From NCBI GenBank assembly GCA_001914405.1, contig MSDW01000002.1:248001-312000 (forward strand): DNA of 64,000 nucleotides, given 5' to 3'. Below the pieces are notes generated by a model. It was not told where the DNA came from. It made no database searches and saw nothing but the letters and a program-made list of their open reading frames with translations. Within the stretch, counting starts at the first letter, position 1, and each line of letters begins with the position of its first letter. This stretch comes from Candidatus Methanohalarchaeum thermophilum (GTDB lineage Archaea > Halobacteriota > Methanonatronarchaeia > Methanonatronarchaeales > Methanonatronarchaeaceae). Shown here one piece after another: positions 29,450 through 57,965 of the stretch. The position numbers were made by a program, and so were the translations under genes.

Positions 29450-29450
29450 G

Positions 29451-30542: not shown

Positions 30543-31747
30543 GAATTTTTTATTTTTTTACTGTCTATTAATTCTAAAAAAGTAGTTTCAAGTTTTTTAC
30601 CTACTACATCTTTCGAAAAATTTTCAATAGCATATTTTCTAGCATTTTCAGACAATCTTTTTCTTTTTTTATCTTTTTTAATCAATTGCAAGATAGCTTT
30701 TCTTAATTCTTTTACGTTTTTAGGTTCAACTATAATCCCATTCTTATTGTGCTCTATTATTTCTGGGATGGCGCTAATATTTGTAGAAATAGTAGGGGTT
30801 TTCATGGCTAAAGCTTCCTTAATTACTACTGGCATAGCGTCTCTATCACCTTCTTCAGTTATTATACTCGGTAACAAAAAAATACTAGCTTTATCGTATT
30901 CTTCTATTAGTTTTTTGTCGCTAACATTTCCTAAAAATTTTACTTTATTTTTTAGTCCTAATTTTTTAGTAAGTTCTTTGAGATTTTTTTCTTCAGAGCC
31001 AGATCCTATTATATGATACTCAAAATCATCTTCTATATCACTTAGAGCCTTTAAAGCATATTCAATCCCTTTTTTCTTTACTAAACGCCCTACAGTTAAA
31101 ATTTTATTTTCTTGTGTATTTTTGGATGGTCTAAATTTCGTTAAATCGTTACTTGCAGGTATATATTTGATGCGGGGTAAATGGTCAAATTTACTCTCAA
31201 ACCATTTTTTATTATACTTAGAAGGAACAATTAAAAAATCTAATTTATCTAAAAATAATTGTAAGTTTGATTTTGGCTTTGTAAAGATATCAAAAGCATG
31301 TGCTGTGCATGAAAGAGGAATATTTAATCTTGAGCAGACCTTATTAGCTGCTAAAATCTTGTTATCTAAAAAATGTGTATGTATCAAATCTAGATCAATA
31401 TCATGAGATTCAATATAATTAATAATTTCCTTATAAAATAAGATAGAAGAAATAGATTTCTTAGGATTCATTATTACATTTACTAAGTCTTCTTGTTCAA
31501 AAAGAGATTTAAAAAATTTATAATCTAAATTATTAATTAAAAATAAAAGATTGTTCTGTTTATAACTATTTGAATATTTAACATTTACATCCATCTTTTT
31601 GATTTCATTGTGCTCATAATCCTCTTCAGGATTATTTAATGCAAATATATGAACATCATGTCCACTTTCAGTCAAAAATTTAATCTCATTTAAGATAAAA
31701 GTTTCAGAAAGCTTTGGCCAATTTCCTAAGAAATATAAAATTTTCAT
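30539..31747 (-). CDS. Glycosyltransferase, GT4 family (WcaL/AmsK-like)
   Basis: The 402-residue GT-B enzyme starts MKILYFLGNWPKLSETFILN, the pattern of colanic-acid and amylovoran-type GT4 enzymes (P-x-x-S-E-T-F). It has the acceptor motif THFLDNKI and the donor-side block TEEGDRDAMPVVIKEALAMK near residue 300. It leads towards 30539, convergent with the previous gene. It follows the GT4 gene at 31765 after 17 bases and belongs to the long minus-strand glycan operon. The specific sugar is unknown. Confidence 0.85.
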   Translation of the reverse strand: MKILYFLGNWPKLSETFILNEIKFLTESGHDVHIFALNNPEEDYEHNEIKKMDVNVKYSNSYKQNNLLFLINNLDYKFFKSLFEQEDLVNVIMNPKKSISSILFYKEIINYIESHDIDLDLIHTHFLDNKILAANKVCSRLNIPLSCTAHAFDIFTKPKSNLQLFLDKLDFLIVPSKYNKKWFESKFDHLPRIKYIPASNDLTKFRPSKNTQENKILTVGRLVKKKGIEYALKALSDIEDDFEYHIIGSGSEEKNLKELTKKLGLKNKVKFLGNVSDKKLIEEYDKASIFLLPSIITEEGDRDAMPVVIKEALAMKTPTISTNISAIPEIIEHNKNGIIVEPKNVKELRKAILQLIKKDKKRKRLSENARKYAIENFSKDVVGKKLETTFLELIDSKKIKNS

Positions 31748-31764
31748 TTTAAGCCTCTATGTTT

Positions 31765-32859
31765 TTAATCAATCCTCTTAATGATTTCATGAAATTTTTT
31801 CGACAAAACATTCCAATCAAATTTTTTCTTTGCAACTTTCCTCGCAAATTCATTCTCACTTTTTTCATCTTCCATTGCTTTAACCAACCCTTTTTTAATA
31901 CCTCTCCAACCTGGTTCAACTAAATATCCAGCTTCCCCATACATTAAATCTCTTTTATTTTCCCCAATACCCGTGGCAACAACTTTCTTTGCCATAGACA
32001 TATACTCCTTAATCTTCACGGAACTTCTGCACCTCGAACTAAAATTATCTTCCTTTAAAGGATTAACACATATATCAGATGCTTTAATAGCTTTTCTTAC
32101 ATTTGAACGATTAATAAAGCCTGTAAAGATAAAATTTTCTCTGCAATTCATCTTACTTACATATTTTTTAAAATTAGAAAGGTTAGGGCCATCACCAACA
32201 ACCATTGCCTCCAATTCTTTTCCTTCCTTTAACAATTTAATTGTTGCATTTGCCACTTCTTTTCCCGCAAATTCATTTTTATTCCCACCTATTCTTCCTA
32301 AAAATAAAATAGTGTTTTTTTGAGTATCTATTTGATGTTTTTCTATAAATTTACTCGCTTTAGTTTTTTTAGGATCAAAAAAATCAGTATCAACTCCGTT
32401 AGATATATAAGAAACATCATTGTTATTAACTCCTATATCTAGTGCCACATTTCTTAAATATTTACTAACCACAACAAGCTTATTTGCCTTTTTTACGCTT
32501 TTATATTCATAGTAAGCTCTAGGATTAAAAAAAGAAGGTTTTATTTTTCTAAAATCAATAAATGCATCGTCCCAATCTACAATTATAGGTTTTGAATAGA
32601 TTTTTTTAATTAAGTTTCCAGCAAAAGAACTTGGGAGTAATGGTGCATTGAAATATATTACATCTGAGTTTTTAAGTTTTTTAAGGCTCTGAATAGTGTT
32701 TTTGATTACTTTAAAGCCTTTTTTAGGATAACCTCCTTCCCAATTTTTTAGATTAACTTCTTTTACTTTTATATCAGAAGAAAGTGAATTGATAAGGTTT
32801 TTCATTCTTATTGTTGTTGCATATTTATCAGGTAATCCGTATATTACTCCTAATTCCAT
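31765..32859 (-). CDS. Glycosyltransferase, GT4-like
   Basis: The 364-residue protein has a GT-B layout. There is an N-terminal domain with YGLPDKYATTIRMKNLINSL. The donor-binding half contains FLGRIGGNKNEFAGKEVANA near residues 194-213, GDGPNL near 240, and KIKEYMSMAKKVVATGIGENKR near 305. The usual E-x7-E is less clear than in its neighbours. Its start overlaps the end of the GT2 gene at 32850 by ten bases, so it is translationally coupled. It probably adds one sugar of the same glycan. Confidence 0.78.
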   Translation of the reverse strand: MELGVIYGLPDKYATTIRMKNLINSLSSDIKVKEVNLKNWEGGYPKKGFKVIKNTIQSLKKLKNSDVIYFNAPLLPSSFAGNLIKKIYSKPIIVDWDDAFIDFRKIKPSFFNPRAYYEYKSVKKANKLVVVSKYLRNVALDIGVNNNDVSYISNGVDTDFFDPKKTKASKFIEKHQIDTQKNTILFLGRIGGNKNEFAGKEVANATIKLLKEGKELEAMVVGDGPNLSNFKKYVSKMNCRENFIFTGFINRSNVRKAIKASDICVNPLKEDNFSSRCRSSVKIKEYMSMAKKVVATGIGENKRDLMYGEAGYLVEPGWRGIKKGLVKAMEDEKSENEFARKVAKKKFDWNVLSKKFHEIIKRID

Positions 32860-33791
32860 TTTAGATACACCATTAAAACCCCAATCGATTCAGATAATTT
32901 TTTACACCAATAAATAGATGTGAAGATTAAGTTTTCGAAAAAAGTGTCTGAAATATCCTTTGTTTTTAAAAACCCATAACTAAAAACTAAAATTAAAAAT
33001 ACTATTGGAAAAAAAAAGGAAAAGTATCCTAATAAAAAAGTTAATATAGCGACTGGTAGTAAAAAAATCGATTTTGGCAAACCGTTCCATTTTTTTGTAT
33101 AAGATCCAATACCCTTCCCTCTTGTAAAAGAATTCTTTATGAAATCAAAGAAATCTAAAGAATGTAAATGTTCTCCTTTAACAGGAAGGTAAACTATTTT
33201 ATATCCAGCATTACATATTCTTTTCTTTAAATCTGCATCTTCACCTCCAGGATTTCTGAAATTTTTCTCATCAAATCTAAAATCGTTAAGTATATCTTTT
33301 CTATAACTCATGTTACCCGTTCCACCTGCAGGCGACTCAAATCCACCTACCTTTTTCTTATTATCTATCCCATATTTCTCCTTACTCATTTTCTCATTAA
33401 AATCATCAAAAACCGATCTTTCTTTTCCAGGGACCTCAATATAACCTCCTACCCCTCCTATTTCTTCGGAATTATATTCCGGTAAAAAAGAAGAAATCCA
33501 ATCCTCCGGCATTACAACGTCATCATCAGTTAAAAAAATTATTTCTCCCTTAGATTCTTCTATTCCCTTATTCCTAGCTGATGCAGGACCCTTGTTTTCT
33601 TGAAAAAAATATTTCAAAATTTCGTTATTTTTTCCCATATCCTCTAAAAAACTTCTAGTACCATCAGTAGAACCATCATCTATTACAATAACTTCATAAT
33701 TTCCATCAAAATCCTGAAAAATTAAACTATCCAAACATTTCTCTAATTTTTCCTTCCTATTAAATGTAGGAACTAATACACTAACCCTCAT
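32850..33791 (-). CDS. Glycosyltransferase, GT2 family, membrane-tethered
   Basis: The GT-A domain is clear: VSVLVPTFNRKEKLEKCLDS at residues 3-22, VIVIDDGSTDGT near 35-46, and FLTDDDVVMPEDW (the DxD-like metal motif) near 90-102, followed by an aromatic GGEDADLKKR. Hydrophobic segments at about 235-275 anchor it. It extends or starts a glycan chain on a lipid carrier. It lies five bases after the AP-superfamily gene at 33796 and overlaps the next gene. Confidence 0.85.
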   Translation of the reverse strand: MRVSVLVPTFNRKEKLEKCLDSLIFQDFDGNYEVIVIDDGSTDGTRSFLEDMGKNNEILKYFFQENKGPASARNKGIEESKGEIIFLTDDDVVMPEDWISSFLPEYNSEEIGGVGGYIEVPGKERSVFDDFNEKMSKEKYGIDNKKKVGGFESPAGGTGNMSYRKDILNDFRFDEKNFRNPGGEDADLKKRICNAGYKIVYLPVKGEHLHSLDFFDFIKNSFTRGKGIGSYTKKWNGLPKSIFLLPVAILTFLLGYFSFFFPIVFLILVFSYGFLKTKDISDTFFENLIFTSIYWCKKLSESIGVLMVYLKWN

Positions 33792-33795: not shown

Positions 33796-34647
33796 CTATC
33801 CCTCAATCTCCAACCAAGGAACTTCTCTTAAAACATCCAAACCAGAGTCAGCAGGATGACCCCATCTTCCTTTCTCACCAAACGCCTCTCCATGGTCAGC
33901 TGTGATAATTATTTTACCACTTAACTCTTTTATTAGGTTTGAAATTGATTCAAGAGCAATCTCGGCATTTTTCTTATACCAACTTAAATCAGAAGTTCTA
34001 AAGACATATTCATATTCGCTACACAGTTCTAAAGATAGCAACTTTCTTATTTTCCAAATATTTTGTCTTCCAAAATGTTTCTCTAATAAAGGACCTATTT
34101 TATCTCTAAAAGAGTACATAAGTCTATCTTCTTGAGATTTATTACCAGATCCTTCTACTATTTTATTTTTCATTTCTCCTATCGAAGACCCCTTTACTTT
34201 ATCAAATCCTATATACGGCACATGAGGTTGAATATAGTGTAATATATTTTTCCCAGAATTCTTATACCTAAATAAATTAATATTAACCTCCTTAGGATGA
34301 ACAGTACTGATTTCTTCGTCCCACCCAGTATACCAAACATCAATTATCTTCTCAAAGTGGTCTGTCGCCTTCCAGTTATAATTCGTATGATGAATATCTC
34401 CAATCTCAACACCCATGTCATTTATAAAAGGGTTTGCAGAAATATAAGTATAGTCATATTCCTCCTGAAAGGTTTTTGAAAGCCATGCAGGAGTAGCAGA
34501 TCCCCTGCTTTTGACTTTTTTTAATTCTCCATCCAAGTAATCATCATAAACTTCTTCAAAAACATCGTATCTACACGCATCTAATATAATCAAATAATCC
34601 CAATCAACCTCATGAACAGGCTGCAACCGTAAGTTATCATTAGCCAT
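33796..34647 (-). CDS. Alkaline-phosphatase-superfamily hydrolase/transferase, copy 1
   Basis: This soluble 283-residue protein keeps the superfamily order: ILDACRYDVFE with metal Asp23, GSATPAW with a candidate nucleophile Thr52, HYIQPHVPY with His142, and ITADHGEAFGE with Asp251-His252, then His264. The family is the archaeal sulfatase-like group seen in surface-polysaccharide loci; actual chemistry (sulfatase, phosphodiesterase, or phospho-alcohol transfer) is not known. It has no signal peptide, so it would act in the cytoplasm. Four more paralogs lie in this locus, each beside different glycosyltransferases, so each may act on a different sugar. Confidence 0.78.
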   Translation of the reverse strand: MANDNLRLQPVHEVDWDYLIILDACRYDVFEEVYDDYLDGELKKVKSRGSATPAWLSKTFQEEYDYTYISANPFINDMGVEIGDIHHTNYNWKATDHFEKIIDVWYTGWDEEISTVHPKEVNINLFRYKNSGKNILHYIQPHVPYIGFDKVKGSSIGEMKNKIVEGSGNKSQEDRLMYSFRDKIGPLLEKHFGRQNIWKIRKLLSLELCSEYEYVFRTSDLSWYKKNAEIALESISNLIKELSGKIIITADHGEAFGEKGRWGHPADSGLDVLREVPWLEIEG

Positions 34648-34710
34648 AATAGAAAACCTAGCCTATATTGGGTTTGAATTCCATAAAAATCATTTGAAAT
34701 TTAAAAAAAC

Positions 34711-35567
34711 TTATTTCTTTTTTACCTCAAACCAAGGAACTTCAACTAGCTTAGGTGTGTAGACACCAAATGGGTGTCCATATATTTTGTATTCGCCAAA
34801 GCATTCTCCATGATCTGCTGTAATTATAGTTTTTTCATTATTAAATTCATCAGTCAATTTCTGTAATTTATCTAAAACCAGTTTTGAAGTTTTCTTATAT
34901 GCTTTTTTCGCTATTTCTTTATCTTTTGAACTTGAAATAGTTAGGGGAGAGACTTCTTTCTCATTATCTTCAAAAAGGTATGGATGATGTGGTTGTAGAA
35001 AGTGAATTATGAATTTCTTTTTAGGATATTGTTTTTTTAATTCCTGAGTTTTTTCAATCATGGCTTCAGGGTCAACCATTCCTAGTTCTTTGTTCCAGCC
35101 ATAGTCCCAAACATTTTCGATATGATAAAACAGGGTTGGTTGATTTAATCTATTTCTTAGCTTATGATTTACAACAGGATTACCACAAACATAAACAATA
35201 TCCTTGCCAAAAGCCCCCTTAAAGTTCCTTATAACCCATTCAGCAGTATTGGAGCCCAAGGAATTTTTTTTTTCTCCAGTTTTCCATCCAAATAATCTCC
35301 GTAGAGGCTTTCAAACATGTCATACCTCATCGTATCTAATACGATTAAGTTTTCCCAGTCCTCACAAAAAATAGACTCCTGTTTTTTCCATAACCTAGAC
35401 CAAAACCAAATTAACTTATGGAAAGTTGTTGACCTACCGATCGTAGTTGCATCACCAATGTAAGCCCCTAAAAATTCTCTAAACCATGGCCTCTTCTGAA
35501 TAAATCTTGGAGGATTAGATTCCTCTAACTTTTTTTCTATTAATGATAATAATCCAATAAAAACCAC
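34711..35567 (-). pseudogene. Alkaline-phosphatase-superfamily protein, copy 2, frameshifted at A10
   Basis: Two overlapping frames together make one member. The upstream part (35229-35567, from GTG) ends with LDTMRYDMFESLYGDYLDG; the downstream part (34711-35259) carries GSNTAEW, HFLQPHHPY and ITADHGECFGE. They change frame at a run of ten A (plus strand T10, 35264-35273); eleven would give L-E-K-K-K-N-S-L-G-S-N-T. The copy differs from others in a longer N-terminal region (about 75 residues before the first motif). Options are real disruption, transcriptional slippage on the A-run, or sequencing error. Confidence 0.65.
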
Positions 35568-35652
35568 CTGAACAAATTTTTCCTAAACCATTTAAATAAC
35601 CCTTCCCATTTTCCTTCTCTACAAATAAATTATTTTCTAATTCAAAGTATTT

Positions 35653-36133
35653 CTAGGATGCAGGGAAAACATAACACAGTCCAAAAGTGGTATAAAGATG
35701 CTTAAATCTATTTGTAAACCACTTTAATATTTTATTATTGGCTATAATTCGTCTATCTTTAATTTTAAAAGTTTTTTCAATATAAGGTTCATTTGAATCC
35801 TCAGTAAAAGCTTTTATGGAATCATAATGGAAAGCTCGCTTATATTGGTAATGAGTTAAGGCTTTAAAATTTGTGAACTAGGGAGCCCCATATCTTAAAA
35901 ATTCCACCAGGCTTCAAGACCCTTCAACTCTCTTCAAACAATACCTCACGATTGCTGATATGTTCAATAACATGACTTCTCCTAATCAACTCTACATTTT
36001 CATCTTTAAAGAGAAGATACTGTCCTTCTGTATCACAAACTATATCTGCATCACCTGTTTCAAGTTTATCCAAACCGATAAAACCTTTGGGCTTATCATT
36101 ACCGCAACTTAAATCAATTTTTAACCATATCAA
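35653..36133 (-). pseudogene. SAM-dependent methyltransferase, nonsense and frameshift
   Basis: The open part (36133-35924) encodes IDLSCGNDKPKGFIGLD, the SAM-binding motif I, and HVIEHI. It then hits TGA exactly where family members read S-x-R-V-L-K-P-G-G; the frame continues RVLKPGGIFKIWGS after the stop. A further one-base change at a T4 run leads into LTHYQYKRAFHYDSIKAF and ends at 35653. It lies four bases after the GT4 gene at 36138. Because TGA elsewhere here is an ordinary stop, this is most likely a dead methyltransferase of the glycan operon. Confidence 0.65.
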
Positions 36134-36137
36134 ACAC

Positions 36138-37208
36138 TTAGATATTTAGTTTTTCCAGCAATCTCTTTGTTGTTTTCTTCCAAGTATATTTTTCGGAAAC
36201 CAATTTCCTATTTTTTCTACCATATTTTTTATTTAAGCTCCTATTTTCTAAAAAATCCTTCAGATAGTTACTAATTTGATTAATCTCTCCAGGTTTTACT
36301 ATCTTTCCACCCCCTGATTCTCTAACTAAATCCTTAGCGCCCACATTTTCTGATATAATTATAGGGACACCAACTGCCATTGCTTCAACAACAGGTATTC
36401 CAAATCCTTCAGAATAACTTGGTAAAATAAGAACTTTAGCATTAGAATAAAGCTCATATAATCTCTTATCAGAAACATACCCCTCTATATCTATATTTTC
36501 TTCGAGATCTTTATCTTTAACTAATTTTTTTATTTTACTCCAATTTCCATAGCCTACTAGCTTAGATTTAAATGAACCATAAATCTCCTTTAATCTATTT
36601 AAAGCTTCAATTAAATCATTTATACCTTTTCTATTGCTCACTCCTCCTACAAACAATATGAAATCACCAGAATTCTTTCTTTTATAACTAAACAACTTTT
36701 TATCAACACCATGAGGATATATCACAGATTTTTTTCCAAACTCTGAATTATAATATTTAAGTTGATTTTTTACAAAAGATGAGGGAACTATAATTTTTTC
36801 CGATATCTCTAAATCATGCTTATGTAAGTCAATAAGGAAATTATTACCAAAGTCATTAATAATGTGATTTAGTTTCTCCTTTAAATTCGTAAATTCCATT
36901 AAACCTTTCTGATGTAACTTATCTAAAAATGGCCTCACATCACCACAAATAGTGTAATATCTTCCATTATGATCTTCAGAAGCAAAATAATTCTGACCCA
37001 TAAACCCAATCAATATACTATCTCTATCAATTTTCTTTTCTGCTTGGTAGCTAAAAATCAAATCAGAAAAAAAGTAGGAAGGAATCTCATTTTCAAAAGC
37101 GTAATAAGTAACATCATATCCTAATTTATCAATTGATTTATACATATTATAACTTAATCTCCCTAATCCTCCCTTATTCGGTTGAGTTTGAGCTATTATC
37201 TCAATCAT
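36138..37208 (-). CDS. Glycosyltransferase, GT4 family
   Basis: The 356-residue protein begins MIEIIAQTQPNKGGLGRLSY, a GT-B glycine loop. The donor half has GGVSNRKGINDLIEALNRLK near 187-206 and SYSEGFGIPVVEAMAVGVPI near 274-293, with the E-x7-E signature of GT4 enzymes. Sixteen bases separate it from the AP-superfamily gene at 37225. Mannosyl- or glucosyltransfer is typical, but the donor cannot be told. Confidence 0.86.
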   Translation of the reverse strand: MIEIIAQTQPNKGGLGRLSYNMYKSIDKLGYDVTYYAFENEIPSYFFSDLIFSYQAEKKIDRDSILIGFMGQNYFASEDHNGRYYTICGDVRPFLDKLHQKGLMEFTNLKEKLNHIINDFGNNFLIDLHKHDLEISEKIIVPSSFVKNQLKYYNSEFGKKSVIYPHGVDKKLFSYKRKNSGDFILFVGGVSNRKGINDLIEALNRLKEIYGSFKSKLVGYGNWSKIKKLVKDKDLEENIDIEGYVSDKRLYELYSNAKVLILPSYSEGFGIPVVEAMAVGVPIIISENVGAKDLVRESGGGKIVKPGEINQISNYLKDFLENRSLNKKYGRKNRKLVSEKYTWKKTTKRLLEKLNI

Positions 37209-37224
37209 ATTTCATAAGTTAATC

Positions 37225-38067
37225 TTATTTATTAATTTCAAGCCAAGGGATGTCCCTCAAGACATCCAGTTCGCTTCCGCTTGGATGTTCCCAGATCCCG
37301 TTTTCTCCTAAGGCTTCACCGTGATCTGCAGTTATGACAATTTTTCCATTAATTTCACCTATTAAATTGGAAACTGAATTTAATACTTTCTGTAAATTAA
37401 TTTTATAATGTTTTAAAATATCCTCTAAGTATCCCTTTCTAAAAATTTCTTCATATGGGGTGGTGGGTTCAATATCCAAAACTCTTTTAAAAGACCAGAT
37501 AGCTTTTTTATCAAAAATTTTTTCTAATAAAACCCCTAACTTGTCCTTTAAGACATTTTTATCAACATTACCTGATTTTACTCGTTTTTTTCCGGTTTTA
37601 AATGTTCCACCAATAGGCCCTAAGTGCAAAAAGGGTAAATGAGGCTGAATATAATGTAAAATAAATTTATAATTTTCTTTTTTATTGGAAAAGTAAGCTA
37701 AATTCATTTGTCGTGGTGGAACAGTTTCTAAATTCTTATCCCATCCAAAATCCCAGACATCTACGATTTCTTCAAAATGTTCATTTGGATCATAACGATT
37801 TTTTATTTTATGTCCTAGTGAATTTATACTAGGATTACCTGAGATATATTTAATATCCTTATAACAACCTGGAAAAGTATTAACTAACCATTCTCCAGTC
37901 TTAGATCCTCTACTTCTAACTTTAATTAATTCTCCATCCAAATAATCTTCATAAACTTCTTGGAAGAAATCGAATCTACAGGCATCTAAAACAATTAAGT
38001 AATCCCAGTCAACAGAATGAATAGGTTGTATCTCTGGTTTAGGTCTATCAGACATTTTTATCACCAT
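37225..38067 (-). CDS. Alkaline-phosphatase-superfamily protein, copy 3
   Basis: The 280-residue protein repeats the family motifs: VLDACRFDFFQ near residue 26, GSKTGEW near 53 with the conserved Thr, HYIQPHLPF near 135, and ITADHGEALGENG near 245 followed by a HPSGSELDVLRDIPWLE tail that closely matches copy 1. Copies 1 and 3 are the closest pair by eye. The start at 38067 abuts the flippase stop at 38068, suggesting coupled translation. Confidence 0.78.
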   Translation of the reverse strand: MVIKMSDRPKPEIQPIHSVDWDYLIVLDACRFDFFQEVYEDYLDGELIKVRSRGSKTGEWLVNTFPGCYKDIKYISGNPSINSLGHKIKNRYDPNEHFEEIVDVWDFGWDKNLETVPPRQMNLAYFSNKKENYKFILHYIQPHLPFLHLGPIGGTFKTGKKRVKSGNVDKNVLKDKLGVLLEKIFDKKAIWSFKRVLDIEPTTPYEEIFRKGYLEDILKHYKINLQKVLNSVSNLIGEINGKIVITADHGEALGENGIWEHPSGSELDVLRDIPWLEINK

Positions 38068-39489
38068 TTATTTTTCTATTAAACCAATAAAAATTTTTTT
38101 AGCTAATTTATATATGTCTCTGTCTATATAAAGCAGGATAGTAAAGTAGATCATTCCCCCTAATAAGACAGTTGTTAATAGGTAATATATATTAGAGGTA
38201 TTCAAAAATTTTGTAAGAACAAAAACAAATACTAGCATCATAGATGAAGAAATAACTTCTTTTATCCATTTTTTTATAGGAAAAACACTTCCTAATTCTT
38301 TTTTTAAAATGTACATTAGAAAAAAACACATTATTAAGGAAGAAGCCAAGGTTCCTACTGCAACTCCTATTATGCCATAGTAATAAAGTAAGGGAGCTCC
38401 AATTAAGATATTTAATAAGGTTGCTATTGCATCTACTTTGAAGACCTTTTCAGGTTTGCTTACCCCATAGAAAAACTGAGAAGGACTTACACTTAGAGTA
38501 ATAAAAACCATTGAGAGCAACAAAATTATTAGAACTAACCACCCATTTTCAAATTTGGGGCCATATATAGTTCCTAATATATCTTTTGATAGAATTAATG
38601 ATCCGAAAAAGACTGGGAGTATTATAATTGGAAGATAAGCTAACGAATCCTTGACTACTCTGGCAATTTTTTTTTTCTTATTTTTGTAGTGGTAATCACT
38701 TATTTCAGGTAGTATTGATTGGCCTATTGCGCCTGAAAAATTGACATTTTCAGATATCGCCCATGTTATTCCATAAACTCCTGCTGCAGAGCTTCCAGTA
38801 GATAATGATCCTATTAAAAATAGATCTATCCATCTTTGTCCAGCACCTACAAAACCGTCTATCCAACTGAAGGAAGTAAATCTTACTACTTCCTTTAAAT
38901 GTCTTCGAGAAGGTTTTTTTAATTTTAAATCTACAATAAAACCCATAGAAACCGATATTATAAGAAGAGAAACTATTAACCCTGTTATCATTCCAAATAA
39001 TTCAAAACCTAGGTAAATTAAAATTAATTGAAAAAAAACTGTAGTTATTCTTTCAAAACTTTTGATAAACCCTGCACGGCCAACTAACTTCTTTGCTTTT
39101 AATGCATTATATCCTAATGTCGTTAAAAATCTAAAAAATAACACTAAAACTAATAGATACCATACATTGTATCCTCCTACATACAAGTTTACCTTCTTCT
39201 TAAATAGGAAAATTGAAAGAGAAAGAATTAAACTAGTTATCAATATTAAGATAACTGAAGCTGAAAAATATCTTTTAGGTTCTTTAGATGATAGTTTTTG
39301 GACAATAGTAGCTCCAATCCCCAGATTACCTACTCTACCTAATATAGATACAAGCGACATGAAAAGATAAAAAGCTCCAAGAACTTTTGCCCCTAATACT
39401 CTTGCAAAGACTATAGATGATAAAAAACCAATTAACATTATAATAGCTTTTGAAGTGAACCACTTCAAGGCATTTTTGGCTAACCTCAC
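38068..39489 (-). CDS. Wzx-like lipid-linked oligosaccharide flippase
   Basis: The 473-residue protein has about fourteen hydrophobic segments from residue 10 to 465. It starts with a family-typical LAKNALKWFTSKAIIMLIGF followed by SIVFARVLGAKVLGAFYLFM, which matches MOP-superfamily polysaccharide exporters (PF01943/PF13440). It would carry the completed lipid-linked glycan across the membrane. Its ATG overlaps the stop of the AP-superfamily gene at 39486 by four bases, so it is in the same operon. Confidence 0.88.
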   Translation of the reverse strand: MRLAKNALKWFTSKAIIMLIGFLSSIVFARVLGAKVLGAFYLFMSLVSILGRVGNLGIGATIVQKLSSKEPKRYFSASVILILITSLILSLSIFLFKKKVNLYVGGYNVWYLLVLVLFFRFLTTLGYNALKAKKLVGRAGFIKSFERITTVFFQLILIYLGFELFGMITGLIVSLLIISVSMGFIVDLKLKKPSRRHLKEVVRFTSFSWIDGFVGAGQRWIDLFLIGSLSTGSSAAGVYGITWAISENVNFSGAIGQSILPEISDYHYKNKKKKIARVVKDSLAYLPIIILPVFFGSLILSKDILGTIYGPKFENGWLVLIILLLSMVFITLSVSPSQFFYGVSKPEKVFKVDAIATLLNILIGAPLLYYYGIIGVAVGTLASSLIMCFFLMYILKKELGSVFPIKKWIKEVISSSMMLVFVFVLTKFLNTSNIYYLLTTVLLGGMIYFTILLYIDRDIYKLAKKIFIGLIEK

Positions 39490-40325
39490 CTTTTTACCTC
39501 AAACCAAGGTACTTCCATTCTTCTATGACCAAACCCTTCATCGCCTCCTAAGGCTTCACCATGATCTGCTGTAATAATAATTTCCTCTTCTTCACTTAAA
39601 CTATCTACTAGATTCCTAACTTCTCGCAGAGCTAATCTCAAGTTTTCTTCATATGCTTTATGTAAAGCTTCTATTCCTCTTGTCTTGGCTAAATCTTCGG
39701 GAAACCTAGGCGTTAGACCAAAATATTTGATACCTATTCTTCGTAAAAAGTCGTTGTTTATTATTTTAGTGGAAAAAGACTCTGGTAGATAATCCGTAGC
39801 TTTTTTAAAAAACTTGAAGATCTTAGTCCCTATATATTTATTAAATTTAGTAGATCCTCTATCGCTTCCAACACCCTCGTCATCTTTCCTTAATATGGGT
39901 ATATAGGGTTCATGAGGCTGTAAATAGTGAACAATGATTTTTTTACCAGGATATTTTTCTTTCCATTCTAAGGCTGCCTCTGTCACATCTTCAGGTAATG
40001 TAACATCCAGCTCCTCATCCCAAGCAAAATCCCAGACATCAACTACCTCATAAAATTTTTCATGTGCATCAAGAGGAGGAGTACCAAATGCACCTATTCC
40101 CTTAGAGTTTACTACAGGATTACCAGACACATAGATTGTATCATGATAATCTTCAGTAAAAACTGACTTAAAAAACCCTCCAGTTCCAGATCTCATAGAA
40201 ACTATTGAATCTAATTCTCCATTTAAAAAATCACCGTAATTTTTCTCAAAACAATCATATCTACATTCATCTAAGACTACTAGTAAATCCCACTCAGTCT
40301 CATGAATTAATTTTTTTTGATCCAT
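39486..40325 (-). CDS. Alkaline-phosphatase-superfamily protein, copy 4
   Basis: The motifs are VLDECRYDCFE near residue 17, RSGTGGF near 46 where the conserved Thr lies in a slightly changed context, HYLQPHEPY near 133, and ITADHGEALGGDEGFGH near 250. At 279 residues it is the same length as its relatives. It is first in the stretch that leads into the flippase, and overlaps it by four bases. Substrate unknown. Confidence 0.77.
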   Translation of the reverse strand: MDQKKLIHETEWDLLVVLDECRYDCFEKNYGDFLNGELDSIVSMRSGTGGFFKSVFTEDYHDTIYVSGNPVVNSKGIGAFGTPPLDAHEKFYEVVDVWDFAWDEELDVTLPEDVTEAALEWKEKYPGKKIIVHYLQPHEPYIPILRKDDEGVGSDRGSTKFNKYIGTKIFKFFKKATDYLPESFSTKIINNDFLRRIGIKYFGLTPRFPEDLAKTRGIEALHKAYEENLRLALREVRNLVDSLSEEEEIIITADHGEALGGDEGFGHRRMEVPWFEVKR

Positions 40326-40424
40326 TTTTTCCCCATATCCATTTATTACTTCAAATCCTTCTATTCTGAAATAACTTTTTGATAAACTAGATTTTAATTT
40401 ATTTCCATACAGAACTAAAACCTT

Positions 40425-42053
40425 TTAAGACCACCTATACACTGTAATCTTCGATGAATTGTAGGTTTGATTTAATTCATCACCTATTTCTTCTAAAAGT
40501 ATTTGATCTGCTTCATACCTTCCAGATAAAACAACCCATCCCTGCTTATTTCTATCCATTACCTCAAGCAGCTCTTTATCATTACCTAATTTTTCAATTG
40601 GAAGATAAAAGCTTATTTTGGTTTTTTCAGTTTTAACATAACTATACATTTTATACTCCAGATCTTTAATGTTGTTACTATAATCATAGTAGTTTAAATA
40701 CCTATATAAGCTATTTGTTCCTGTAAATGCTTTTGAAGTTGATACAACTGGTATTGGCTCCTTTATATTTTCTTCTGAGTCAGTTAATTTAATTTTCTCT
40801 GCTGCTGGCCTCACCTTTATAAAAGGAGGGCCAAACTGGTGGGGGCCTTTTTCAGGGTTTTTGGGATAAGTATAGAGAAAGCTATCCTTAAAAATATTAT
40901 TTAATGTTACTTGTGGTGCTAAAGAAGTTAAAAAAGGTATAAGCAATATAAAAATAACTAAAACTGAAATTTTCAAATATTCTTTACGAAATTCAAGAAA
41001 ACTTAATTTACTGAAGGATTTTTCAGTAATTTTAAAAAATATATAAGAAGAGAACAACAAAAATATGGGTAGATAAAAAAAGAAATATCTAGTCCTTATA
41101 TCACCTGAAAACATTGGTATAACAATTAAAACCAAAAATGGGACTAAATTTAACGAGGAAATAACTTTATCTTTCTTACTACCTCCATAATACATATAAA
41201 AAGTTACCAACAAAGTTGATATTATTAAACTTAAAATAATAAGAACCTTAACCATTGAATGAGGGGTCAAAAAGGAAAGTCCCTTAAAATTTGTTCGACT
41301 CTCCCCAACAAGATTAACTAATATTTTTTCAAAAAACCTAAGAAAAGGAAAATCTAGAACAAATAAAGATAAGCCCAAAACAAAAATTAAGATATAAGCT
41401 GGTAAGATCCAATTTATATATATTTGTTTGTTTAAAATTATTAAATGGATAATTATTATTGCAGGTAATAAAGATATGACTGGAGGAAAAGTAAAAAAAC
41501 CTAGTGTAAACAAGATAAATAAACTTATTATGTTTTTTTTAGGCTTATCTAGGTAATTAAAGTATGTAAACAGTATTAATAAAACTATGAACAAAAGTAG
41601 AGAGTAATGTCTTATCATACGGGACCAGAATATACTTATGCTAGAGAAAGTCAGTAAACCAGAACTTAATAATCCTACCTCTTTATTAAAGATCTTCTTA
41701 CCTACTATATAAATTAACGGAATACTTAAAATCCCTAAAACTGCACTCGGCAATCTACCAGCCCAATCAGTGTGGCCAAGTATCTTATAGGAAAATGTTA
41801 GAAGATAAGTATGAGTCCAATGTCCAAAATACTCAGAACCACTAGGTAAAAGAGGGGGAAAGTGGCTAAATCCATTAACTGCAGCTAAACTTGATATCGA
41901 CTCATCAGTATAAATATAAGGGTGGCCTAAATTCCTAAACCGATTAAAAATCCCGATCAAAGTAAAAACCAAAACAAAAAAACGACCCAAATCTTTTTTT
42001 ATCTCCTCAAATAAAGAAGTTAAAAAATCCCTAATAAAAAGAAAACTGATCAA
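40425..42053 (-). CDS. GT-C glycosyltransferase, ArnT/PMT (GT39/GT83)-like
   Basis: The 542-residue polytopic protein has about eleven membrane segments. The first external loop holds YIYTDES (Asp50-Glu51), the acidic pair that binds metal or acceptor in GT-C enzymes, followed by DWAGRLPSAVLGILSI near 90. Such enzymes use polyprenyl-phosphate sugars outside the membrane. It is separated from copy 4 of the AP family by 100 bases. It could add a sugar to the surface glycan or a protein; the acceptor is unknown. Confidence 0.82.
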   Translation of the reverse strand: MISFLFIRDFLTSLFEEIKKDLGRFFVLVFTLIGIFNRFRNLGHPYIYTDESISSLAAVNGFSHFPPLLPSGSEYFGHWTHTYLLTFSYKILGHTDWAGRLPSAVLGILSIPLIYIVGKKIFNKEVGLLSSGLLTFSSISIFWSRMIRHYSLLLFIVLLILFTYFNYLDKPKKNIISLFILFTLGFFTFPPVISLLPAIIIIHLIILNKQIYINWILPAYILIFVLGLSLFVLDFPFLRFFEKILVNLVGESRTNFKGLSFLTPHSMVKVLIILSLIISTLLVTFYMYYGGSKKDKVISSLNLVPFLVLIVIPMFSGDIRTRYFFFYLPIFLLFSSYIFFKITEKSFSKLSFLEFRKEYLKISVLVIFILLIPFLTSLAPQVTLNNIFKDSFLYTYPKNPEKGPHQFGPPFIKVRPAAEKIKLTDSEENIKEPIPVVSTSKAFTGTNSLYRYLNYYDYSNNIKDLEYKMYSYVKTEKTKISFYLPIEKLGNDKELLEVMDRNKQGWVVLSGRYEADQILLEEIGDELNQTYNSSKITVYRWS

Positions 42054-42419
42054 TAACCACCTCTTTACTTAAAAGAAATTTAGTTTACAAAAAAATTTAC
42101 CCCTCTGAAAACAAAGCACCTGAGAAAACAAGGATATACCTCTAGAGAAAAATAAAAATAAATACTCTACCATTACTCAAAGAATCCTTATATCCTCCTA
42201 GATCATCCAATTAAAACCGAAAATTAATCCAAAATAAAATCTTTAAAGGAGATATAAGAAATAGATCACACCTAAAGAGCAAATCTAAAATTAATATTAT
42301 AACCTTCATTTAGAACTCACTCTAAAACTTCCCATAATATAAGGATGCATCCCAAGCAAATGAAAGCTTCGAAAGCTCTTAGCACTACCTCGTATCTCAA
42401 TCCTATTTTCTCGAAAATT

Positions 42420-43060
42420 TTTAGTTAGAAAAAGAATCTCTCAACTAACTTTCCATCATTATAGGAGCCATCATCAAACTTCATTAGTCTGCCTCCGTCC
42501 CCATCCTCTGTATAACTCCCAATTACCTCGTCATTTCAAAAACCCCCTATCCCTTTAGTTCTGTATAGCGAATCGGCTAAAATCCCTCCCAGTCTCGTCC
42601 AAGGGCCACCTACTATTTTGATAATTATATTCTTTAAAATTCCCTCAAATAAACTTAAAAAAAATCTTTTACCTCTAAGAACCTTTATTAATAAAAAACC
42701 AGCTTTCATAATTAAAAAATAAATTTTAGATCCCTTTCCTGCCCTTGTAACTACCATATCCTATCCGTTGCTCCTATTTTGTTTCTAAAGTTGTTGAACC
42801 TATTATTGCCTTATTTAATTCAAGCTCTCCGTTCCTTGTATGCTTTCTCCTGCAGCATTTCATCTATTCTATTCTATTCTATTCTATTCTATATATCCTT
42901 CTTCTTGCAACTTCTTTGAGCGTCCTTAGGCCCCGCAACATAGGATCCATATCCCCCAGACATATTACTCCACTTAAACCCCATTAATAGAACATGAGGA
43001 ATATCTTCAATTGCTCTAAAATCGTTAGCTATCATCCTATATATTTCAAAGTGAGTAAAG
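42420..43060 (-). pseudogene. Decayed coding stretches, unidentified
   Basis: Several minus-strand pieces look once-coding: IANDFRAIEDIPHVLLMGFK with SNMSGGYGSYVAGPKDAQR (around 42940-43040), GELELNKAIIGSTTLETK (near 42800), a 73-codon piece at 42536-42757 with GGPWTRLGGILADSLYR, and after a TGA, NDEVIGSYTEDGDGGRLMK. They are in different frames with intervening stops. Position between glycosyltransferase genes suggests a lost glycan gene. I could not assign a family. The rest of 42054-43505 holds nothing else I can support. Confidence 0.4.
42864..42892. repeat. CTATT pentanucleotide tandem repeat
   Basis: Five full copies and a partial copy of CTATT run uninterrupted. The repeat lies within a decayed stretch of the glycan locus. 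On the minus strand it introduces TAG in each frame, so it could not keep a gene open. Confidence 0.75.
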
Positions 43061-43505
43061 AAATACAGACTCTAATAAAACTCCATTAATAGCTCTTTAC
43101 CCCCTCAAATCCCAAAAACCACCTCATGCCATAAACCTAAACTTAGAAGCTACTAAACACTTTTGAAATGAATTTAAAATTAAATCAGATAAAGTCACCT
43201 GAGTAGCTTAAAAACGATTTATTGGTTAAATAAACAAACTAAAAACATAAAAAATAAAAATAGAATAAAAACGAGATCCAAAAAATAATTTCTAAATAAT
43301 GGCCTAAAAAACTTGAAGAACAAGAAAAAAAGATATCTGCAACTAAACAACCATTTAACCAAATTATATAAATCAGATTTGAACTAAAAAATCCACTGAT
43401 AACTTGGAACCACTAAAATTCTTTAAACACCAAAAACCAAAAAAACAAAACAATGAAATCACTACCCCCAAAATGTAATTTGAAAAACACCTTGGTAAAT
43501 GAAAA

Positions 43506-44429
43506 ATGAATGATAAAATTAAGACAATCTCCAAGTTCGTAATTAGTTTTACATTAATCGCGGTACTATTATACAAAACCGACATAAGCAAAATAATAAG
43601 CCAACTAAAAAACATAAAAATAACTTTTTTCGTATTAGCACTTTTCCTAAGTTTCATAGGCCTAGTTATTAGCGCAAAAAAATGGCAGATCCTACTAAAA
43701 GCAAAAGGAGAAAACCAAAAACTCCTAAAAGTATTCAAACACTACTACATCGGAGCATTCTCAAACCTATTCCTCCCCAGCACAATAGGAGGAGACGCAG
43801 TAAAAGCAACCACCATATCAAAAGACCTAAACAACAAAGAAGAAGGATTCTCCTCAGTATTCATGGAAAGATACACGGGTTTAATCTCTCTAATAATGAT
43901 ATCATCATTTGGATTCACATACAGTTACGAACTCCTGGGTAAAAAAATATTAACGGCTTTTATTTTAGTTCTTGTACTATTCGGTACAATAACTTTTTTA
44001 GCATTATCTGAAAAAAGCCAAAAGATACTTAATTTTTTACCTAGTAAACTTCCATTAAATCTAAGGGAAAAAATTCTAAATCTTCATTTTTCAATCAGGG
44101 AATATAAAGACCAAAAAAAAGCAATATTATACTCTATAATAGTTTCAATATTTTTTCATGTAATAAAAATTTTATATGTTTTCGTTCTGGCTCTAGCTTT
44201 AGGCATCGAAATACCTATATTATTCTTAATTGTAATGGTACCGGTTTCCCAAATCATTCTATTTTTACCAATATCAATTCAGGGAATCGGAGTCCGAGAA
44301 ACCTTATATGTTTCCTTTTTAAATGAAATCGGGCTGCCTGCTTCAACATCCCTATCGCTATCCCTGCTTATTGAAATCACCATCATTATTAAAAATATTC
44401 CCGGTATACTTCCTATCCTTAAAAAATAA
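43506..44429 (+). CDS. LPG-synthase-like integral membrane protein (UPF0104/AglD type)
   Basis: The 307-residue protein has about eight membrane segments and the family block AFSNLFLPSTIGGDAVKATT near residues 88-107, then VFMERYTGLISL, and a late LPISIQGIGVRETLY. This is the lysylphosphatidylglycerol synthase transmembrane region family (PF03706), found alone in archaeal glycosylation loci and as the C-terminal half of AglD. It may handle a lipid-linked glycan precursor. It is alone on the plus strand within a minus-strand locus. Confidence 0.85.
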   Translation: MNDKIKTISKFVISFTLIAVLLYKTDISKIISQLKNIKITFFVLALFLSFIGLVISAKKWQILLKAKGENQKLLKVFKHYYIGAFSNLFLPSTIGGDAVKATTISKDLNNKEEGFSSVFMERYTGLISLIMISSFGFTYSYELLGKKILTAFILVLVLFGTITFLALSEKSQKILNFLPSKLPLNLREKILNLHFSIREYKDQKKAILYSIIVSIFFHVIKILYVFVLALALGIEIPILFLIVMVPVSQIILFLPISIQGIGVRETLYVSFLNEIGLPASTSLSLSLLIEITIIIKNIPGILPILKK

Positions 44430-44459
44430 AAATATTTTTAAAATCAAATTCAAAAATTA

Positions 44460-45167
44460 TTAGCTCTTCCGCTTTTCTCCTATTACATAGATTGATGGTT
44501 GAAAGATAAGAGGTAATTTATTGAAAGGTATCAGCTTAGTTATATATTGAATGATTGGCCCAAGTTTCTCTTTTTGGTAATTAGGTAATCGACTTGATTT
44601 TAAAAAACTAAATTTAAATTTATAATCCTTTAAAATATTTTTTAGAGCGTGATGAGTTAATACATTAGGATGAAATTTTTTGGATTCGAAATAATTAAAT
44701 TTATAGGCCTGAAAGATATCATGAGTGAACTTATTAGGTGTTTTTAAAAAAAAATATCCATCGTCTTTCAAAACTCGATTAACTTGCTTTATTAAATTTT
44801 TAGGTTCTTTAAGGTGTTCTATTACCTCTATTGACACAACTGCATCAAAAGTATTTGAATTAAAAGGCAAATTTTCTGCATCACACCTTATGAAATTTTT
44901 TCCTCTTTTTAATTGATGTGCTTTTTTTAATCTATTTAATTTAAGATCACAACCAACTACACTATGGCCATCCCTATTAAATTCACCACTTAATGCTCCA
45001 GTACCACATCCAACCTCTAAAACCGATGAATTACGATTTAAACTATCCTTGATAATGTCTTTAAACCAATTAGGCGTGGTGACCTTAGAGCGATCTCTTG
45101 ACCCCAAATCTGACATGTTATTATGGTAGTTCACTAAACCCCAAAAAATTTTTCCTAAATAGCACAT
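44460..45167 (-). CDS. SAM-dependent methyltransferase
   Basis: The class I fold is clear: motif I VLEVGCGTGALSGEF near residues 48-62, the acidic end of beta 2 VVGCDLKLNRL, CDAENLPFNSNTFDAVVSIE near 95-114, and LKDDGYFFLKTPN. Length 235 is standard. In this setting it probably methylates a sugar of the surface glycan. There is no obvious ribosome site; the in-frame TTG/ATG options shift the N-terminus by few residues. Its 5' end faces the plus-strand copy 5 of the AP family with 19 bases between. Confidence 0.85.
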   Translation of the reverse strand: MCYLGKIFWGLVNYHNNMSDLGSRDRSKVTTPNWFKDIIKDSLNRNSSVLEVGCGTGALSGEFNRDGHSVVGCDLKLNRLKKAHQLKRGKNFIRCDAENLPFNSNTFDAVVSIEVIEHLKEPKNLIKQVNRVLKDDGYFFLKTPNKFTHDIFQAYKFNYFESKKFHPNVLTHHALKNILKDYKFKFSFLKSSRLPNYQKEKLGPIIQYITKLIPFNKLPLIFQPSIYVIGEKRKS

Positions 45168-45186
45168 TAAAAGATATGTTTTTTAG

Positions 45187-46011
45187 GTGATGCCTATCCA
45201 AGAGCAATCGAAACTGATGTTAAAAAAAGAATGGAAAAATCTAATTGTTCTAGATGCTTGTAGATACGATTATTTTTCAGAAATTTGTGATATCAAAGGA
45301 AAATCTAAAAAAGTTTACTCTCCTGCAATAAAAGGTGATTCAGCTCCAACAACAAACTGGTACAAACAGATTTTTGAGAGAAACCTAAAAGATTGTGTTC
45401 ATATCTCTGCTCATCCTAGAGTTAATTCTAAGACCGAAGTAGATGGATATAATGCTAGTAAATGGTTCGGTAAGATCTATGATTTATGGGACAGTCATTG
45501 GGATGAGGAATATGGAACAGTTTTTCCTGAAGATGTTTCAGATGAGGCTAAAAAGATTGTAAGAGAGAGAGCCGAACAAAAATATATTATTCATTTTATG
45601 CAACCTCATACTCCTTATATCTGTTTACCCCCTCCCAAAACAAAAAAGAAAAAACAGCCAAAATCCAGAAATTCCATATTTAGAAAAATTAGGAACCTAG
45701 CAGTTAAACATACTAGAAATTATATAGGCGACATGCAAGCTGTTAAATTAATGGAGATATTTAATATGCCCCCATTAAGCCCTCAAGACGATGCATTAAG
45801 AAAAGTTGGTAAAGAAGGAGTGAAAGAAGCATATGAAGGGAATCTCAAGAGAGCATTGCAAAGCATTAAGCCACTATTAGATCACCTAGATGGAAAAACT
45901 ATTATAACAGCTGACCATGGAGAACTTCTAGGAGAAAAAGGAAGATTCGGTCATTCATTTAAAAAAGAAATCAAAGAACTTGTTGAAGTCCCTTGGCTAG
46001 AAATCGAATAA
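45187..46011 (+). CDS. Alkaline-phosphatase-superfamily protein, copy 5
   Basis: The 274-residue protein is the most diverged family member: VLDACRYDYFS near residue 20, SAPTTNW near 55 with Thr in the conserved place, HFMQPHTPY near 138, and ITADHGELLGEKGRFGH near 243. It is the only copy on the plus strand. An AGGTG lies only one or two bases before the ATG, so the start may be leaderless. Function as for copy 1, substrate unknown. Confidence 0.77.
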   Translation: MMPIQEQSKLMLKKEWKNLIVLDACRYDYFSEICDIKGKSKKVYSPAIKGDSAPTTNWYKQIFERNLKDCVHISAHPRVNSKTEVDGYNASKWFGKIYDLWDSHWDEEYGTVFPEDVSDEAKKIVRERAEQKYIIHFMQPHTPYICLPPPKTKKKKQPKSRNSIFRKIRNLAVKHTRNYIGDMQAVKLMEIFNMPPLSPQDDALRKVGKEGVKEAYEGNLKRALQSIKPLLDHLDGKTIITADHGELLGEKGRFGHSFKKEIKELVEVPWLEIE

Positions 46012-46030: not shown

Positions 46031-46960
46031 TTAAATTTTTTCCTCTACATTATATGATTTTTTATTTTCGTAGTATATTTTTTTGAGTATTTCTGTTAAG
46101 AATCCGAATATTATTAGTAGTAGGCCGAATAGGACTAGTCCTATTACTAAGATTAGTTGGGGGAGATGTTGAAGTAGTGGTTCTCCAAATAAGTATTTCA
46201 TTATTACCCTATAACTTCCTATTAGTAGTCCAGCCACCATAAATATGAATCCGGATGTTCCTAGGAAATGTACTGGCCTTAACGAATATCTATTCCAGAA
46301 GATATGAAAAGCCAGATCCAATGATCCTTTTATTAGTCTTTTGGCTCCGTATTTTGTTTTTCCGTGTTCTCTTGGTCGGTGGTTTATTGGTGTTTCGGTT
46401 ATTTTGTATCCTTTTTTGTAGAGTTTTGATGGTATGTATCGGTGTTCTTCTCCATATATGTTTAGGTCTTTGAGTGCTGTTTTTTGGTATGCTCTGAATG
46501 TGCATCCGAAGTCGTGTAGTTTTACTCCTGTTAGGGATGCTAGTTTATTGGATATTTTTGATGGAATTTTTTTCCGAATTAGTGGGTCTTTTCTGTTTTT
46601 TCTCCATCCGCAGACGCAATCGTATCCTTCTTTGATTTTTTCTAGGAGTTTTGGTATGTCTTTTGGGTCGTTCTGTAGGTCTGCATCCATGCTAATTATT
46701 ATTTCTCCTTTTGCGTGGTCGAATCCTGCTTGTAGTGCTGCGCTTTGGCCAAAGTTTCTTTTAAAACTAATTAATTTAACTCTTTCATCTTTTTTGTGTA
46801 ATTTTTTTGTTTTTTGTTTTGTTTTGTCGGTGGATCCGTCATCTATGTAAATTAATTCCCATCTCCCACCTATCTCTTCCATTACTTTTTTAATTTCCTT
46901 GTATAATGGTTTTATGTTTTTTTCTTCGTTGTATGCTGGAGCTATAATAGAATAATCCAT
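46031..46960 (-). CDS. Polyprenyl-phosphate glycosyltransferase (DPM1/GtrB/ArnC-like GT2)
   Basis: The 309-residue protein has the GT2 motifs YSIIAPAYNEEKNIKPLYKE at 3-22, YIDDGSTDKT near 38-47, SMDADLQNDP near 90-99, and GCTFRAY followed by a basic RPREHGKTKYG that binds the lipid phosphate. Two C-terminal membrane helices (about 233-255 and 270-295) are typical of GtrB-type enzymes. It makes a polyprenyl-phosphate sugar, which could feed the GT-C enzyme at 40425. Confidence 0.88.
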   Translation of the reverse strand: MDYSIIAPAYNEEKNIKPLYKEIKKVMEEIGGRWELIYIDDGSTDKTKQKTKKLHKKDERVKLISFKRNFGQSAALQAGFDHAKGEIIISMDADLQNDPKDIPKLLEKIKEGYDCVCGWRKNRKDPLIRKKIPSKISNKLASLTGVKLHDFGCTFRAYQKTALKDLNIYGEEHRYIPSKLYKKGYKITETPINHRPREHGKTKYGAKRLIKGSLDLAFHIFWNRYSLRPVHFLGTSGFIFMVAGLLIGSYRVIMKYLFGEPLLQHLPQLILVIGLVLFGLLLIIFGFLTEILKKIYYENKKSYNVEEKI

Positions 46961-56969: not shown

Positions 56970-57074
56970 ATAAAAGGGGTGATGTTCGTTGCTGATTATT
57001 AGCCAAGGCCTTGGTTTAATTATTTCTTTAAATGGCTCTGGTCCCCAAACTACAGTTCCTCTATCGAAAACCAA
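56970..57074 (-). pseudogene. MazF/PemK-like toxin, 5' part, cut by E1
   Basis: From TTG 57074 (no ATG in frame) the frame reads DRGTVVWGPEPFKEIIKPRP, then WLIISNEHHPFY, and hits the end of E1. This is the start of a PemK/MazF-family endoribonuclease (R-G-x-V-V-W ... P-R-P-W-L-V-I-S-N). The 25 bases between E1 and E0 (55568-55592) continue the frame as RIDVRVF. The C-terminal half is missing beyond E0. It follows the antitoxin-like gene at 57093 by 18 bases. Confidence 0.55.
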
Positions 57075-57092
57075 AGAATTTCATTTCTTAGT

Positions 57093-57431: not shown

Positions 57432-57461
57432 TTTGTAAAAAAAAGTAATAAAACCTGGGGG

Positions 57462-57539
57462 TCAGAAACCGCAAACCTCCTCCAACTAACAGACCCAAAT
57501 CTAATAGAGTACTTAGAAAAAAAACCATATCCTGACGCC
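57462..57539 (+). pseudogene. Nucleotidyltransferase gene fragment cut by a solo hairpin
   Basis: The 26-codon frame SETANLLQLTDPNLIEYLEK-KPYPDA aligns with the segment YNLLKLTDSGLIDYLEK-NLYPDA of the wHTH-nucleotidyltransferase at 60012. It stops at the left end of the 55-bp element. Joining the flanks as for the other elements gives PDA-I-I, close to PDAIV of the homolog, but the sequence past that does not continue the gene. It is a partial duplicate. Confidence 0.45.
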
Positions 57540-57926: not shown

Positions 57927-57965
57927 GTCAACTACCTCTCCCTAAATCGGAAATTTAGGAAGGGG

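Follow-up and report, generated by a model that had tools for sequence, protein, structure and literature searches.

Alkaline-phosphatase-superfamily paralogues in an archaeal glycan locus as possible threonine-nucleophile group transferases

What might several diverged members of the alkaline phosphatase superfamily do side by side in one archaeal glycan locus? The question is raised by a 64,000-nucleotide stretch (C2:248001-312000, hereafter the window) of the 2.14 Mb genome of Candidatus Methanohalarchaeum thermophilum, in which five homologous genes of this superfamily lie at positions 33796-46011 within a long glycan locus. We tentatively read their products, at close to an even chance, as compact cytosolic group transferases that use a threonine nucleophile to decorate glycan intermediates, with sulfate as the likeliest group and with copies that have diverged in substrate. 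An earlier note on this DNA had proposed five diverged paralogues on both strands. Five homologous genes are indeed present, but B is split between reading frames and four are intact; both strands are used, but unevenly, with four genes on the minus strand and one on the plus:

33796-34647, minus strand: paralogue A, 283 amino acids (aa), intact
34711-35310, minus strand: paralogue B, C-terminal half, with GSNTAEW, QPHHPY and ITADHGE; Pfam Sulfatase 25.1 bits (cut-off 25)
35229-35582, minus strand: paralogue B, N-terminal half, with LDTMRYD, in a frame different from that of the C-terminal half
35264-35273: run of ten T, read on the plus strand (ten A in the coding sense), at which B changes frame
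37225-38067, minus strand: paralogue C, 280 aa, intact, structure modelled
39486-40325, minus strand: paralogue D, 279 aa, intact, with the loop variant RSGTGGF
45187-46011, plus strand: paralogue E, 274 aa, intact, structure modelled; Pfam Sulfatase 29.1 bits

The four intact proteins share 30-48% pairwise BLASTP identity (E-values of 2e-38 or lower), far beyond chance. All the shared motifs described earlier are present in all five copies. From A to E, LDxxRxD reads LDACRYD, LDTMRYD, LDACRFD, LDECRYD and LDACRYD, and the threonine loop reads GSATPAW, GSNTAEW, GSKTGEW, RSGTGGF and SAPTTNW; QPHxPY/F (x being V, H, L, E and T) and ITADHGE are kept throughout. B as a whole spans 34711 to about 35582 on the minus strand with its halves in two frames, and the break may be genuine decay, mark a gene that can be switched or stem from an error in sequencing. 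The genome has two more intact paralogues beyond the window, at C2:31629-32453 and at C1:1319113-1319916, where no adjoining glycosyltransferases were seen among neighbours judged by eye.

The predicted structures of C (28 sequences, predicted local distance difference test (pLDDT) 87.4, predicted template modelling (pTM) score 0.84) and E (40 sequences, pLDDT 92.7, pTM 0.91) are single compact domains. Their nearest fold is the catalytic domain of EptA/MCR (for C, 5fgn with Z 16.6, root-mean-square deviation (rmsd) 2.8 and 196 aligned; for E, 4kav with Z 16.1, rmsd 2.5 and 194 aligned), and Foldseek matched MCR-1 at E 1.9e-7 (VIA-align Z 16). Arylsulfatases and choline sulfatases come next at Z of about 15, lower by 1.4 Z units for C and by 0.6, a tie, for E; since they trail so closely, the fold leaves the choice between EptA/MCR and sulfatase undecided. 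Judged from these models, the fold and the canonical order of nucleophile and metal ligands place the family in the alkaline phosphatase superfamily, in line with the earlier assignment. Structural modelling, suggested at that time as a check, put T57, D28 and D248/H249 (C numbering, used throughout) where expected relative to the strands and helix: in the C model, D28 follows strand 23-27, T57 opens helix 57-64, and D248/H249 follow strand 242-246.

The family and EptA/MCR have the motif DHGExLGENG-x-x-x-H in common. HHalign of the family against E. coli EptA/EptC gave a probability of 88.5 (E-value 2.7e-6), compared with 0.9 for AslA, a sulfatase entered as one lone sequence; it pairs DHGE-x-LGENGIW-x-H of the family with DHGE-x-LGENGIY-x-H of EptA, and its N-terminal alignment is poor. 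From motif reading and EptA numbering, we take D28 and T57 to be the counterparts of an EptA metal ligand and the EptA nucleophile, and presumably the threonine nucleophile and metal-ligand pattern of EptA match those of the window family as a whole. In contrast to EptA/MCR, the window proteins lack a membrane domain, show no export signal and differ in the QPH loop, and identity in the structural alignments is only 14-20%. No membrane helix was found in the proteins of 274-283 aa, the maximum 19-residue hydropathy being 1.02, and we would place the active site in the cytosol. The lipoteichoic acid synthase LtaS, whose nucleophile is also threonine, shares the fold (Z 13.9 between 2w5q and E) but is not the closest, and it too carries a membrane domain that the window family lacks; EptA and LtaS both act outside the bacterial membrane. 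Choline sulfatase and other type I sulfatases have the same fold and the motifs HxPY and DHGExLGE, but the window proteins are much shorter and lack the formylglycine motif: [CS]xPxR is absent at the nucleophile in all five, where threonine stands instead of the cysteine or serine of that motif, and the one match to it, in the N-terminal extension of B, is unrelated.

Relatives were found in 10 of 60 genomes, the host included, by single-protein and alignment searches, and 80 named loci were kept out of 162 confirmed. Haloarchaea are foremost among them, followed by Nanohaloarchaea, Diapherotrites, Woesearchaeota, Thermoplasmata, Lokiarchaeota and Heimdallarchaeota, with metagenome-assembled genomes (MAGs) of Desulfurococcales and Thermoprotei, Phycisphaerae and one Crocinitomicaceae MAG in addition. 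Scans of Pfam and NCBIfam returned no model that covers the family well. Pfam Sulfatase (PF00884, cut-off 25) is exceeded only by E and the half of B, with C (11.4 bits) and D (11.3 bits) below it and A unmatched; PglZ (PF08665) gave 12.6-18.3 bits (cut-off 25), the STM4013/SEN3800 'family hydrolase' model NF038075 14.3-25.6 bits (cut-off 250), and the EptA/MCR models of NCBIfam 9.8-13.4 bits, where the cut-offs are 500-1240.

Extraction by script yielded 118 distinct proteins; its rules demanded LDxxR-like, QPHxP and DHG-like motifs, so the constancy of these three is partly by construction. The tree and residue counts rest on 105 of 125 rows, near-duplicates having been removed. H143, D248, H249, H261 and P274 are constant in 105 of 105 rows and D28 in 103 of 103, D33 is kept in 102 of 103, and position 30 is cysteine in 100 of 103; D28, R31, QPH and DHG were partly demanded when rows were collected, and T/S57, H261, P274 and D33 were not. 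Position 57 is threonine or serine in all 104 filled rows. The claim of an invariant threonine thus holds within the clade of the window proteins but not in the wider family, which has 71 threonines, 33 serines and one gap. The tree divides into two forms. The short form (39 rows) takes in every window copy and the copies of genome G001, as well as Phycisphaerae, DPANN archaea and a haloarchaeal type; the long form (66 rows) is mostly haloarchaeal, and many of its members end in LxxLGY. Every short-form row has threonine apart from one with a gap, and serine is confined to the long form. Within the short form, C is the sister of A (support 87), a G001 copy joins E (87), B pairs with a Woesearchaeota protein (84), and D belongs to a poorly resolved set that includes G001 copies (81); all four supports stay below the starred level. 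Such placement suggests that the window copies are mostly old and diverged, A and C perhaps excepted.

Among relatives, the group that is transferred can be approached through Halobacterium salinarum. Zaretsky and colleagues tested three alkaline-phosphatase-like genes of its N-glycan cluster (PMC11980604). According to their report, deletion of VNG1056C (Agl30) or VNG1057C (Agl31) led to less glycan sulfation, and each of the two sulfated the glycan of Haloferax volcanii, whose laboratory strain does not itself sulfate its N-glycan, when expressed there (PMC11980604); a word search of that text found no mention of PAPS (3'-phosphoadenosine 5'-phosphosulfate), a donor, an active site or a mechanism (PMC11980604). 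We know the H. salinarum proteins here only as short peptides translated from the published primers: VHYFQPH and KIDEDV for VNG1063H, DFGHLDM and ITDRTV for VNG1056C, and NGAEIK and NYIQAA for VNG1057C. When 1377 proteins, 115 of them from the family, were ranked by each peptide pair, the top 14 held 14 family members for VNG1063H, seven for VNG1056C/Agl30 (hypergeometric 5e-5, the top two both from the family) and one for VNG1057C. On these peptides VNG1063H is a member, VNG1057C falls outside by this test, and Agl30 probably belongs, in the serine subclade. Like the window proteins, Agl30 is alkaline-phosphatase-like, lies in an archaeal glycan cluster and has no InterPro family assignment, and its two peptides fit the window family in order and spacing; unlike them, it is membrane-associated. 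The Agl30-like subclade differs in its serine nucleophile, its longer N-terminus and an often present C-terminal LxxLGY, whereas the window proteins have threonine and end soon after VPW. The LGY tail in the Agl30 cloning primer is not discriminating, because 41 of 1064 non-family open reading frames share that ending. The VNG1063H primer has no exact match in 392 genomes of the phylum or in a further set of genome contigs; the 13 genomes that share a genus with G028 gave just two matches to it, each with three mismatches.

Taken together with the fold, these relatives point to the following scheme. D28, D248 and H249 would hold a metal that activates T57. A donor would hand over an acidic group, which T57 would carry as a covalent threonine ester; the group would then pass to a sugar hydroxyl of the growing glycan at the inner membrane face, with H143 and H261 lining the second half of the site. 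By analogy with the probable member Agl30, sulfate would be the likeliest group, phospho-transfer coming next. The copies may have diverged toward different sugars or positions, and their divergence and neighbours make it plausible that each acts on a different sugar; the 'trimming' also envisaged in the earlier note found no support. In a narrower version, which we regard as rather unlikely, the proteins would be ping-pong sulfotransferases of the alkaline phosphatase fold working through sulfo-Thr or sulfo-Ser, and where APS (adenosine 5'-phosphosulfate) kinase is lacking they would use APS from a stand-alone CysD-like enzyme in place of PAPS. The family has been touched in part by one 2025 paper, and we did not find the mechanism described in the literature searched.

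Across the 60 genomes, a CysD-like protein (>300 bits) occurs in 9 of the 10 that carry the family and in 1 of the 50 without it (both 9; family alone 1, which is G033 with the canonical pair; CysD-like alone 1; neither 49; Fisher 6.6e-9). Among 12 family-bearing genomes, both ATP sulfurylase (PF01747) and APS kinase over the cut-off (TIGR00455) were found in G033 only, and the other 11 have an orthologous CysD-like protein. Three of the 12 belong to one genus, and identical plasmid DNA identifies two of them, G028 and G395, as Halobacterium sp. DL1 and H. noricense. One Woesearchaeota locus (L076) holds a family gene, an STT3-like gene, CysD (357 bits, cut-off 195) and CysN (355 bits, cut-off 336) in a single glycan cluster, and a Heimdallarchaeota glycan locus (L071) holds a family gene and a CysD-like gene.

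Several observations weigh against sulfate and against the comparison with Agl30. The host genome has neither ATP sulfurylase (PF01747) nor APS kinase over the cut-off (TIGR00455), and its CysD-like protein scores higher as a phosphoadenylyl-sulfate reductase (140 bits, cut-off 154) than as CysD (103 bits, cut-off 195). Since most genomes with the family are haloarchaea, a single clade, the co-occurrence comprises few independent events. A CysD-like gene lies in 2 of the 80 loci, which is not clearly above chance (about 0.5 expected, an estimate), and in L076, L071 and the G033 operon a phosphodiesterase-like gene (PF01663) lies nearer the sulfate genes than the family gene does. The Agl30-like subclade has serine in 18 of 18 members and the window clade has none; a wide profile built from 62 long-form proteins gave the Agl30 peptide pair 16.2 bits against a null of 13.7 +/- 3.7, which is not significant; and the degenerate Agl30 peptide pattern had no match in the Halobacterium genus group (13 genomes). 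Finally, VNG1063H is the surest member, yet its deletion reportedly left N-glycan sulfation unchanged (PMC11980604). The absence of canonical genes is not proof against sulfation, because H. salinarum sulfates its glycans. With 2 of 80 loci not clearly above chance and PF01663 proteins nearer the sulfate genes, the link of the family to sulfate is no more than suggestive.

Further observations concern sulfate genes. The G033 operon (L160:6462-11190) encodes a TauE-like permease, APS kinase, a PF01663 protein, a DHH protein and ATP sulfurylase among glycosyltransferases, and its PF01663 protein is a second alkaline-phosphatase-type candidate tied to PAPS. The orthologous CysD-like/PAPS-reductase-like protein (L144:1045-1791, L135-L143) is found in haloarchaea and in the window's class, in genomes that lack known ATP sulfurylase and APS kinase. 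The host matches to PF01583 were rejected as SRP54/FtsY-like P-loop proteins by eye.

The best-placed alternative, possible but less probable, is phospho-transfer, in which the threonine would move a phosphoryl-alcohol onto the glycan and the donor would be a lipid or a nucleotide; phosphoethanolamine, glycerol phosphate and other phosphodiester heads are examples of such a group. The earlier note had preferred phosphodiesterase-type or phospho-transfer members over formylglycine sulfatases on account of the threonine; the transfer-type site and the lack of [CS]xPxR bear it out as regards formylglycine sulfatases, but the option of sulfo-transfer had been overlooked. EptA/MCR as nearest folds, a DHGExLGENG that agrees with EptA nearly letter for letter, threonine throughout the window's clade, a host without canonical sulfate activation and the unaltered sulfation on VNG1063H deletion would all fit phosphoryl transfer. 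The window proteins, however, lack the membrane domain of EptA and LtaS, choline sulfatase ranks first in a profile search of PDB sequences (E-value 2.3e-6; EptA 1e-3), and the probable member Agl30 is a sulfotransferase.

Distinctly unlikely, in our judgement, is a hydrolytic role in editing or recycling during glycan assembly, in which the enzymes would strip off phosphate or sulfate esters or split intermediates linked to lipid phosphate. Members of the alkaline phosphatase superfamily are mostly hydrolases, the profile search that matched choline sulfatase best also matched phosphonate monoester hydrolase, and the STM4013 'family hydrolase' matches, weak and all under the cut-off, point the same way; against this, multiple diverged copies adjoin synthesis genes, and Agl30 expression reportedly adds sulfate (PMC11980604). 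That the proteins are formylglycine (type I) sulfatases, as annotation by homology would have it and as the Pfam Sulfatase scores of E and half of B might suggest, is extremely improbable given a nucleophile position that lacks [CS]xPxR in the window five and holds threonine or serine in 104 of 104 rows.

The preferred reading of glycan-decorating transferases agrees with the setting of the genes, and the glycan-locus role proposed earlier is borne out by the glycosyltransferases, flippase and other glycan genes around the copies. Glycosyltransferases of group 1/family 4 (five) and of family 2 (two) lie between 28.3 and 48 kb, together with a nucleotide-sugar epimerase, a flippase, PMT_2, LPG_synthase_TM and a methyltransferase. 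These genes include:

28337-32859, two on the plus and two on the minus strand: four group 1/family 4 glycosyltransferases
32850-33791, minus strand: family 2 glycosyltransferase, adjoining A
36138-37208, minus strand: group 1/family 4 glycosyltransferase, between B and C
38068-39489, minus strand: polysaccharide flippase (Polysacc_synt_3/MurJ-like), between C and D
40425-42053, minus strand: PMT_2 membrane mannosyltransferase-like protein, adjoining D
43506-44429, plus strand: LPG_synthase_TM (PF03706) membrane protein
44460-45167, minus strand: S-adenosylmethionine-dependent methyltransferase, divergent neighbour of E
46031-46960, minus strand: family 2 glycosyltransferase, adjoining E

Neighbours of the family gene in related loci were called mechanically, two per side, for 56 of the 80 named loci and gave a tally of 224, the other 24 loci falling to a filter on locus length, 5 kb flank and extracted family gene. 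As raw counts with no control set, the commonest glycosyltransferase model accounts for 19 of 112 and 18 of 112 neighbours, Polysacc_synt for 3 and 12, Sulfatase for 3 and 9, and Phosphodiest for 8 and 4.

Further features of the locus and of its relatives were recorded. Of the 15 runs of 9-10 A/T bases in the window, four fall in coding frames of the glycan locus, at 33009-33017, 35264-35273, 38667-38676 and 44746-44754, within a glycosyltransferase, B, the flippase and a methyltransferase; these genes are possibly switchable, though the genome is AT-rich. Fragmentary frames at 35653-36145, between the broken B and the next glycosyltransferase, looked by eye like a methyltransferase remnant, a candidate set aside for want of a Pfam match. 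Methyltransferases flank family members in the window (44460-45167) and in G033 (L159:10599-11462), and in G001 the family domain forms the C-terminus of a 451-aa protein (L145:9106-10458) whose N-terminal half is methyltransferase-like by eye and has no Pfam match. Apparent long fusions in G010, G059 and G028 (760- and 837-aa frames) proved to be stop-free high-GC frames. A haloarchaeal member with the motif EHHIET (20 loci, L037-L059) has a family 4-like glycosyltransferase, identified by eye, directly downstream in 11 of the 20, and might make haloarchaeal sulfated glycolipids; a search of titles and abstract openings found no report of the gene that sulfates haloarchaeal sulfoglycolipids. 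Elsewhere in the window, 5936-11152 encodes a surface protein of 1738 aa that looks secreted and whose hydrophobic anchor at the C-terminus resembles, by eye, archaeal sorting tails, which makes it a possible carrier of the glycans; 50744-53401 encodes an 885-aa UDP-glucose dehydrogenase-like protein with what looks by eye like an intein-like insertion after GSC; and 55842-59944 holds several short frames that look by eye like pieces of TnpB-type transposon proteins.

Acidic surface glycans are common in archaea, and the family bears on how, and with which donor, they come to be sulfated; probably many archaeal genes with a sulfatase-like annotation do not encode sulfatases. The putative nucleophile and metal ligands of the family mean that single mutations can test the mechanism, and the diverged paralogues of this locus form a natural set for dissecting specificity.

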